Shown: positions 13,302 to 29,382 of the stretch, one piece after another | Position numbering within the stretch: position 1 is the first letter of the stretch | Layout: the number at the start of each line of letters is the position of its first letter | DNA from: Streptomyces misionensis | GTDB lineage: Bacteria; Actinomycetota; Actinomycetes; Streptomycetales; Streptomycetaceae | Assembly (NCBI RefSeq): GCF_900104815.1 | Contig: NZ_FNTD01000004.1 | Span: 3,984,501-4,048,500 of the forward strand | Reading direction: 5' to 3' | Length of the DNA: 64,000 nt | Notes under the pieces: model-generated | The model's database searches: none | Told to the model about the DNA's origin: nothing | The model's input: only the letters and a program-made list of their open reading frames with translations | Translations under genes and position numbers: made by a program

Positions 13302-13835
13302 ATGTCAGAGCTGACCCTCACGGTCATGCGGCTGGGTTTCCTGGCCGTACTGTGGCTGTTCGTGATCGTGGCCGTGCAGGTCATCCGCAGCGACCTGTTC
13401 GGTACGCGCGTCACCCAGCGCGGATCGCGTAGGGACACCGGGCGGGCCCAGCCCGCGGCCGGCCGGGCGGCCCGGCAGCAGCAGGCCGCTCCCCCGCAGC
13501 AGCGCGGCCAGCAGAGCGGCGGCGGCCGGCGCGGGCGCAACGCCCCCAGCAAGCTGGTCGTGACCGAAGGCACGCTGACCGGCACCACCGTCGCGCTTCA
13601 GGGCCAGACGATCACCCTGGGCCGTGCGCACGACTCCACGATCGTGCTGGACGACGACTACGCCTCCAGCCGTCATGCCAGGATCTATCCGGACCAGGGC
13701 GGCCAGTGGATCGTCGAGGACCTCGGGTCGACCAACGGCACCTACCTGGAGCGGTCCCGGCTGACGACCCCCACACCGATCCCGCTGGGCGCGCCGATCC
13801 GCATCGGCAAGACCGTCATCGAGCTGCGGAAGTAG
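13302..13835 (+). CDS. fhaB: FHA-domain membrane protein FhaB (FipA)
   Basis: A 177-residue protein starting ten bases after fhaA. One N-terminal transmembrane helix (about residues 7-27, LGFLAVLWLFVIVAVQVI) is followed by a Gln/Arg-rich linker. A C-terminal FHA domain (about 95-177) has LGRAHDSTIVL, SSRHARIY and STNGTYLERS. In M. tuberculosis FhaB/FipA is a phosphothreonine-reading partner of FtsZ and FtsQ. It anchors phospho-signalling to the membrane at growth or division sites. Confidence 0.92.
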   Translation: MSELTLTVMRLGFLAVLWLFVIVAVQVIRSDLFGTRVTQRGSRRDTGRAQPAAGRAARQQQAAPPQQRGQQSGGGRRGRNAPSKLVVTEGTLTGTTVALQGQTITLGRAHDSTIVLDDDYASSRHARIYPDQGGQWIVEDLGSTNGTYLERSRLTTPTPIPLGAPIRIGKTVIELRK

Positions 13836-28094: not shown

Positions 28095-28751
28095 CTACCG
28101 CCCGCCCGGACCGCGGGGAGCGGTCGAAACGGCGCTGTGGCCGGGGCCGGGGCTCGCGGGCGTGGTGGCGCACACCGTGCCGCGGGACGCGACCAGCGCG
28201 CAGGCGCGGGCCTGCCCGGCATCGCGCACGCCCACCATCGCGGTGTGGGCGTCGGCGCCGTACTGCTGGCGGTACTCCTCGCGGTCCTGGTGCCGGCCGA
28301 AGACCTGGATCCAGTCGCCCTCCGAGCTGCCGCTCATCTTGGCCCAGGCGGCATGGCAGCGGGGGCTGTAGCGCAGCTCGACCAGGACGCCGAAGTCACG
28401 GCCGGTGAGGACGGTGCCCGCGTCGTTCTGGCAGACGGTGGTGGCGGGATCCGCCCCCAGGCAGCCGTCGCCGTCGCAGGAGGCGGTGGGGGACACCCGG
28501 GCCGACAGGGACGCGGAGGCCGAGGCACCGTGCCCCGGATCCGACCGGGTGAGGAAGAAGATCGCCAGCACCAGCGCCGCCAGCCCCAGGACGGACCCGG
28601 CGGCCCACACCGCCTGCCGTCCGCGCGATCCGGAGTCCTGATAGGTGACGGACCCGTGGTAGACGATGTCCCGGCCGGCCTGGTGCACCTTCGCGCTGCC
28701 CGACGCCCGGGTGCGCTGGTCTCCCCGCCCGGATTTCCTCCTACCGGCCAC
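28095..28751 (-). CDS. DUF2690 membrane protein with QAGRD motif
   Basis: A 218-residue protein. GTG 28751 is chosen; it lies inside the end of the upstream gene (stop 28741), so the two overlap by 11 bases. A short cytoplasmic tail carries AKVHQAGRD (residues 20-28, bases 28668-28694). A transmembrane helix (about 47-67) is followed by an extracytoplasmic DUF2690 domain with CDGDGCLGADP, TVCQNDA and RYSPRCHAAWAK. The four to six Cys suggest disulfides. The same QAGRD peptide occurs twice in the neighbouring gene product. Function unknown. Confidence 0.75.
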   Translation of the reverse strand: MAGRRKSGRGDQRTRASGSAKVHQAGRDIVYHGSVTYQDSGSRGRQAVWAAGSVLGLAALVLAIFFLTRSDPGHGASASASLSARVSPTASCDGDGCLGADPATTVCQNDAGTVLTGRDFGVLVELRYSPRCHAAWAKMSGSSEGDWIQVFGRHQDREEYRQQYGADAHTAMVGVRDAGQARACALVASRGTVCATTPASPGPGHSAVSTAPRGPGGR

Positions 28752-29157
28752 CGCGCCTCCGGACGTCCTGGTCCCGGCCGGCCTGGAAGACCCGCGCATC
28801 TCCCGAGACCCTGGCCCGCTGGACGACATCGCCGGCGGTCCCCCCGCCGGCCGCCGCCCCGCCGCCCCCGGACCGCAGATCACGCCCCGCCTGGTACACC
28901 CGGGCCCGCCCGCCGGCCCTGACCGTCTGCCTGACCCGCCGCCCGGGAGATGCCGTATCCCCCTGTCCCGCCCACCAGTTGACCGCCCCGCCGACGGCGG
29001 CGGCGACCGCCCCGGCGAATCCGAGCGCCACACCCCACCGGTCTCCGTCGTCCGAGGGAAGCCATTCGAACGGCACCACTCTGACGAGCCACGCACACAG
29101 CACGAACACGGCCACGGCCGCCACGACCGCCACCGCCCAGCGCACCGCACGCCCCAT
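28741..29157 (-). CDS. Small membrane protein with two QAGRD motifs
   Basis: A 138-residue protein starting at ATG 29157, with GGGGGAC upstream. Two hydrophobic helices (about 7-30 and 42-62) form a hairpin; a Gly/Arg-rich C-terminal tail follows. The tail has ARVYQAGRD (85-93, bases 28879-28905) and ARVFQAGRD (121-129, bases 28771-28797). The downstream overlapping gene has a third copy. The repeated short motif in otherwise low-complexity tails suggests a self-associating or docking element shared by the two proteins. I do not recognise the family. Confidence 0.65.
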   Translation of the reverse strand: MGRAVRWAVAVVAAVAVFVLCAWLVRVVPFEWLPSDDGDRWGVALGFAGAVAAAVGGAVNWWAGQGDTASPGRRVRQTVRAGGRARVYQAGRDLRSGGGGAAAGGGTAGDVVQRARVSGDARVFQAGRDQDVRRRGGR

Positions 29158-29303: not shown

Positions 29304-29309
29304 CGACAG

Positions 29310-29382
29310 TGGAGCCTAGGGGAGTCGAACCCCTGACATCCGCCATGCAAAGACGGCGCTCTACCAACTGAGCTAAGGCCCC
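29310..29382 (-). tRNA. tRNA-Ala (anticodon TGC)
   Basis: A 73-nt tRNA. The acceptor stem GGGGCCT pairs with AGGCTCC, with discriminator A at 29310. The anticodon stem CCGTC/GGCGG encloses loop TTTGCAT, giving anticodon TGC. T-arm GGGGTTCGACTCCCC is intact. CCA is not encoded. Confidence 0.97.

Follow-up and report, generated by a model that had tools for sequence, protein, structure and literature searches.

Why should two apparently unrelated membrane proteins, encoded side by side next to a tRNA gene, carry the same short peptide? The question arises in a 64,000-nucleotide (nt) stretch of Streptomyces misionensis DNA (assembly GCF_900104815.1, contig NZ_FNTD01000004.1, positions 3,984,501 to 4,048,500; the window), where two adjacent minus-strand genes lie just downstream of tRNA-Ala. 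One encodes P0002, a 138-residue protein with two predicted transmembrane (TM) helices, and the other P0001, a 218-residue single-pass protein with a DUF2690 domain; together they hold three copies of V-x-QAGRD, far above chance by both simulation and shuffling. Adjacent genes for an effector and a NOD-like receptor (NLR) with amyloid motifs are known in bacteria (Dyrka et al. 2020, as related in passages of PMC7889193, PMC7885112, PMC8086366 and PMC12261475). We propose that the window genes are probably an amyloid-signalling pair in which a transmembrane receptor replaces the NLR, and which acts like an NLR/Bell signalosome.

The three QAGRD peptides, read on the minus strand from codons 28893–28879 and 28785–28771 in P0002 and 28682–28668 in P0001, all fall inside 28668..28905, as a first-pass annotation of this DNA had reported. 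A first-order Markov null (60 simulations of 64 kb, six frames) yielded 0.13 QAGRD and 0 V.QAGRD compared with 4 and 3 observed, and when P0001 and P0002 were shuffled, any single QAGRD appeared in 633 of 200,000 trials. Three copies by chance are thus excluded. The fourth QAGRD reading, isolated at 13550 on the plus strand of the window, looks like chance. That annotation had described the shared peptide as nine residues long; the recurrence is real, and the length needs correcting, since profile matches cover ~17–22 residues. The profile in question was made from 11 C-terminal effector tails, all from other loci and none from the window, 7 of which adjoin an NLR gene. Scores for the three copies (Table 1) compare with a shuffle maximum of 9.6 bits (n = 4000); one additional stretch of P0001 reached −0.9 bits, and neither another gene of the window nor any of the DUF2690 relatives P0004–P0069 was among the best 14 matches listed. 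Local alignment of the P0001 motif with the effector tail gave a score of 60, reached by 0 of 20,000 shuffles, and the receptor-like protein resembled its own effector tail at z 6.1 (45 residues) or z 4.8 (75 residues). What was seen of the rest of the two proteins is consistent with their being unrelated apart from this peptide.

The peptides could also be a functionless short DNA duplication within an accessory insertion of two unrelated membrane proteins, which we regard as highly improbable. The site next to the tRNA is indeed variable, as had been claimed: neither gene was found within the stretch read (up to 5 kb) in any of 18 relatives, and copies 2 and 3 are similar at the DNA level. 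Against this, of the 7 third codon positions in V-x-QAGRD, copy 1 differs from copy 2 at 5 and from copy 3 at 4. Near-identical homologues retain the copies, and the same arrangement occurs in unrelated pairs; the profile scores and the census of Bell-like loci given below likewise disfavour a duplication. The tRNA-Ala site itself may be an integration hotspot. In one relative (L120, genome G006), a 624-residue gene that looks integrase-like by eye lies beside the same tRNA-Ala.

The coordinates of the pair are listed in Table 1. For the receptor-like gene, GTG 28751 is the most likely start, because its homologue P0003, also from S. misionensis (218 residues, 96% identity), begins at the same residue and because GGAGG lies four bases upstream. 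The gene overlap reported earlier is therefore present but extends over only 11 nt, and the motif lies close to the receptor N terminus. From their layout, the two genes are likely to be translationally coupled.

Table 1. Features of the gene pair and its flank (positions in the window)
Feature	Position	Strand	Detail
P0002, 138-residue two-TM effector-like protein	28741..29157	-	ATG start, TAG stop; start agrees with family alignment
Motif copy 1 (...ARVYQAGRD...), P0002 residues 74-94	28876..28938	-	24.4 bits
Motif copy 2 (...ARVFQAGRD...), P0002 residues 110-130	28768..28830	-	28.4 bits
Overlap, effector stop / receptor start, 11 nt	28741..28751	-	sequence
P0001, 218-residue single-pass receptor-like protein (motif, TM helix, DUF2690)	28095..28751	-	GTG start
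Motif copy 3 (...AKVHQAGRD...), P0001 residues 12-28, near N terminus	28668..28718	-	20.4 bits
Single TM helix, P0001 residues 48-66	28554..28610	-	mean hydropathy 2.34
DUF2690 domain, conserved cysteines, predicted outside	28200..28463	-	Pfam match
tRNA-Ala adjoining the pair; conserved flank of the variable site	29309..29382	-	

Searches of P0002 against Pfam and NCBIfam gave nothing above cut-off, and PADLOC did not match it either; its kinship was read from its own family. An alignment of 14 rows shows a TM1-loop-TM2 core followed by a tandem motif tail, with R6, F18, A52, A53, Q77, Q113 and A115 invariant; in P0002 itself, copy 2 starts 36 residues past the start of copy 1. The AlphaFold2 (AF2) model (mean predicted local distance difference test score, pLDDT, 59.7) places helices at 3–27 and 37–64 and, at low confidence, two strand-turn-strand units in the tail (strands 75–81 and 86–89, 111–117 and 122–125). 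Among 150 genomes of the genus, 19 had a match at E ≤ 0.001, and 10 of these, the own genome included, held two-TM relatives over most of the length; set aside were G146 (core only, in another protein), the tail-only Bell-like matches in G028, G127, G086 and G014, and the remaining weak matches. When named genomes were scanned with a narrower alignment, 15 two-TM loci came up in Streptomyces, Actinacidiphila and Yinghuangia. After merging four duplicates, we read 21 distinct two-TM loci, counting the window. Nineteen have a neighbouring NLR or STAND (signal transduction ATPase with numerous domains) gene with a related N-terminal motif, directly downstream on the same strand in 18 (after ~200 nt at L078) and convergent in one (Streptomyces pyxinae, L081). 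Pfam searches of five such partners found NB-ARC plus TPR in four (one NB-ARC just under cut-off) and AAA_16, below cut-off, in the fifth; the other partners were assigned from a P-loop read in the sequence. By this kinship, the 138-residue protein is a putative effector of a family whose partners are NLRs. The claim that a homotypic motif of amyloid-signalling type links the two window proteins gains support here, since the peptide or a close variant of it recurs at effector C termini and in neighbouring genes.

The window locus instead has the DUF2690 protein as partner. P0001 matches PF10901 (E 2.9e-16; 59.9 bits, gathering cut-off 23), and Pfam gave DUF2690 only at E up to 1, with no NLR domain (NB-ARC, NACHT or STAND NTPase). 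The AF2 model has 101 residues at pLDDT ≥ 90 and a helix at 57–67 with low confidence. Cysteines 92, 97, 107, 132, 184 and 194 are conserved in 66, 67, 67, 68, 67 and 61 of 68 aligned rows, and so would suit an oxidising location outside the cell. DUF2690 itself is widespread, with a match in 126 of the 150 genomes, and the relatives we read are mostly helix-turn-helix-TM-DUF2690 proteins, with some bare or secreted DUF2690. A search of 5.8 billion proteins returned 67 relatives of P0001, with the motif in P0003 and in none of the other 66 (P0004–P0069), whose highest z against the 75-residue effector tail was 2.7; residues 8–72 alone as query found nothing further. The nearest three helix-turn-helix-TM-DUF2690 proteins of Streptomyces share the DUF2690 domain and TM helix with P0001 (57–64% identity over 53–58% of the query), and most relatives seen carry a helix-turn-helix where P0001 has the motif. 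Read in this way, the DUF2690 receptor occupies the usual place of the NLR, as if one had been swapped for the other, a point absent from the first-pass annotation. At three other Streptomyces loci (L053, L060 and L061), a DUF2690 gene lies upstream of a malate-dehydrogenase-like gene.

The same genome carries a second pair with nearly the same peptide ~237 kb away (L044:4136-6789, C4 at ~3.776 Mb). Its small protein (P0075), with the C-terminal end ATGNGRVYQAGRDQHIQES, fits the description of Bell given in passages of PMC7889193, namely a small helical domain with a C-terminal motif; 'Bell-like' is our own reading of that description. Pfam and NCBIfam showed nothing above cut-off for the protein, and no Bell profile was encountered in the libraries searched. 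Its gene overlaps a P-loop gene that reads as NB-ARC-like in sequence, with ASDQARVYQAGRDLYVNES in its N-terminal part. The effector tail (ATGNGRVYQAGRDQHI) and the partner (ASDQARVYQAGRDLYV) have the core of the window copies, and cross-talk between the two pairs is possible. This common core would also fit a window pair that acts as a decoy or adaptor for the Bell-like/NB-ARC-like system and is no self-standing pathway; we think this improbable, in that the window genes overlap as complete pairs do and comparable pairs elsewhere are neighbours. BLASTP of the two-TM core against the Bell-like core found no match.

We then counted how often Bell-like effectors share a motif with the next gene. 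The effector was matched in 69 of 150 genomes; of 109 listed places, 90 were read and 83 retained (effector of 120–175 residues), with 7 dropped for effector length. At 48 of the 83 loci, the downstream gene has a motif in common with the effector tail (z ≥ 3.5), 38 with and 10 without a P-loop, called here as a sequence pattern and not by domain search; raising the threshold to z ≥ 5 leaves 39 loci, 32 with and 7 without the pattern. The null, obtained with 34-residue tails and 50 window genes as against 45-residue tails in the scan, gave 3 hits in 996 single comparisons and 5 in 249 taken as best-of-three. By these counts, the motif or a close variant is neither generally missing from comparable loci nor scattered at random, either of which would have spoken against the first-pass reading, and the own genome also has such an effector/NB-ARC-like pair. 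Eight Bell-like effectors (L224, L230, L231, L233, L236, L238, L241 and L242) have another tail type (HNTISGGVQHGPVIQAG and the like), with no motif partner detected next door. At L180 and L181 (L181:4414-7329), a NACHT protein has an N-terminal motif, then hydrophobic stretch(es), then the NTPase.

Half of the 10 P-loop-less partners share the architecture of P0001, a motif followed by a single TM helix and an ectodomain: L203 (the locus first met as L166), L222, L225, L247 and L249. The L247 receptor (L247:1175-2509) has a Tectonin domain (31.3 bits, cut-off 30), a beta-propeller ectodomain that is possibly a lectin; at L249, a TIG match lies below threshold and the motif resemblance is borderline (z 3.6). 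The L225 receptor (L225:1715-2542) has an unclassified ectodomain with eight cysteines, and VTMAGRD is found in receptor and effector alike. A further motif-TM receptor, on an Embleya plasmid (L185), has an ectodomain 70% identical to that of L249. Counting the window, there are seven such receptors with six types of ectodomain, between which BLASTP gave no matches at 1e-3. Charge balance around the TM helix favours an N-in orientation in six of the seven, for the window by one charge only, and not in L203. Among the other P-loop-less partners, L212, L216 and L237 have C-terminal TM-like stretches, L256 looks soluble and L213 is a short remnant. Those of L212 and L216 show an N-terminal motif, a charged middle that looks coiled-coil-like by eye, several C-terminal TM-like stretches and no P-loop pattern. 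One plasmid partner (L183:4450-5514) is soluble, with an MgtE_N match and no NTPase, and its VYQVAQGN resembles VFQVGQGN of the effector tail, so still other kinds of partner exist. From these loci, we see an even chance that Streptomycetaceae have a class of NLR-free receptors: type II single-pass proteins with a cytoplasmic amyloid motif and interchangeable ectodomains (DUF2690, TIG-like, Tectonin propeller, unclassified). Paired with effectors of Bell-like or two-TM type, they would relay extracellular signals through the membrane by templated assembly, as a bacterial counterpart of PGRP-LC.

How would the window pair work? The 218-residue receptor would sit in the membrane as a type II (N-in) protein, its cysteine-rich DUF2690 domain outside and one motif on a short cytoplasmic N terminus, and the 138-residue effector would be anchored by two TM helices with a cytoplasmic tail carrying two motif copies. 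On detection of an external signal by the ectodomain, receptors would cluster and their motifs could stack as beta-arches into a seed. The seed would template the same fold in effector tails and so gather the two-TM proteins, which may then act on the membrane, with permeabilisation, growth arrest or death as the putative outcome. The same parts might instead form a constitutive homotypic tether, in which beta-arches pair in a small stable complex without polymerisation or templating of a signal. Such a tether would suit a short motif in a Gly-rich tail, present twice in one partner and once in the other, and the tail also weakly matches the YdcK beta-solenoid repeat (E 0.0024; 18.1 bits, cut-off 30). 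We nevertheless consider it unlikely: the same motif occurs in pairs with NLR or STAND receptors, an arrangement tied to amyloid signalling in passages of the review PMC7889193.

Several observations weigh against the proposal of an amyloid-signalling pair. The pair is known from few near-identical sequences (a cluster of 5 for P0003 and of 4 for P0070), so its conservation says little; P0070, near-identical to P0002, has ARAFQAGRD in copy 2, P0071 (60% identical) has LAGRD at both places, so that the exact QAGRD is not kept, and in more distant two-TM relatives the motif takes other forms (QTGG, QVGG and similar types). The open reading frame of P0002 has a weak gene-likeness score (6.3, our own heuristic). 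AF2 confidence is low in the effector tail and the P0001 motif is modelled without structure, while the charge balance around the P0001 helix is just +1 against 0. No partner gene was found beside the two-TM gene of G041, and at 35 of the 83 Bell-like loci no motif was seen in common, including 8 where a P-loop gene is adjacent. With a nine-tail profile, the Embleya receptor scored only 2.3 bits, a value reached by 1 of 1000 shuffles; because of this poor score, the case for it is made from its architecture and its likeness to the tail of its own effector. An NLR-side motif profile, weaker than the effector-tail profile, ranks the window effector and receptor above other window genes, and the receptor is beaten by 2 of 2000 shuffles and by a truncated call of the effector gene. 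Cognate pairs scored better on average than permuted ones (significant overall, 0/20,000), with the own partner ranked badly at many loci, and because phylogeny was not controlled we do not treat this test as main evidence. Ligand and outcome are proposed by analogy. Finally, raw V.QAGRD matches in DNA exceed the reversed pattern only 3.0-fold (212 against 71 in 41 genomes of the genus): 20 places, most of them picked for V[YFH], comprised 7 effector tails (L166 with an adjacent receptor copy), one P-loop reading frame read as STAND from sequence (L164) and 12 judged by composition to be antisense or chance matches. That census was abandoned for profile and neighbour tests.

Among known systems, the window pair is closest to the signalosomes of bacterial amyloid signalling sequence (BASS) motifs. 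As these are described in passages of the literature cited above, the pair resembles Bell/NLR signalosomes in its adjacent, overlapping genes, in one short motif present in both proteins and in the position of that motif, at the effector C terminus and the receptor N terminus; with Bell-like/NLR pairs of the same genus it shares the peptide itself. It differs in its receptor, which is no NLR but spans the membrane once and has a domain predicted to be extracytoplasmic, and in its effector, which has two TM helices and no BLASTP match to the Bell-like core. By sequence, it thus has the gene pair and the motif of a BASS signalosome and lacks the NLR.

The core of the RIP homotypic interaction motif (RHIM) lies around [IV]-Q-[IVL]-G; compared by eye only, the window core V-[YFH]-Q-A-G-R-D keeps the Q-x-G and differs at the residues flanking Q. 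PGRP-LC spans the membrane once, in type II orientation. In Drosophila it senses peptidoglycan and has a cryptic RHIM in its intracytosolic part that forms amyloid on sensing, according to passages of PMC9496462, which makes PGRP-LC/IMD the nearest functional parallel, with no homology claimed: a short homotypic motif, intracytosolic in PGRP-LC and predicted to be so in the window receptor, is common to both, although the cryptic RHIM is another motif and leads to NF-kB signalling where the window pair has a two-TM effector. HET-s has two repeats, at a spacing like that of the window effector. The HET-S/NWD2 system of Podospora, as passages of PMC7889193 present it, has an effector tail with two pseudo-repeats; the two copies in the window effector are 36 residues apart. 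The system differs in being fungal, with a HeLo effector and an NLR receptor.

Passages of PMC7889193 ask whether signalling amyloids occur in NLR-independent pathways. The passages of PMC8195603 on effector-associated domains mention no motif receptor of the motif-TM-ectodomain kind, and we found no report of one in the open-licence PMC literature. The window and the six further loci supply concrete candidates, each with its sensor, motif and effector defined, and they make NLR-independent amyloid signalling a question that can be tested in laboratory strains. If the proposal is true, ectodomains would be exchangeable like cartridges, and amyloid-type signalling in bacteria, like that of insects, could begin at the cell surface and would not be limited to the cytoplasm.
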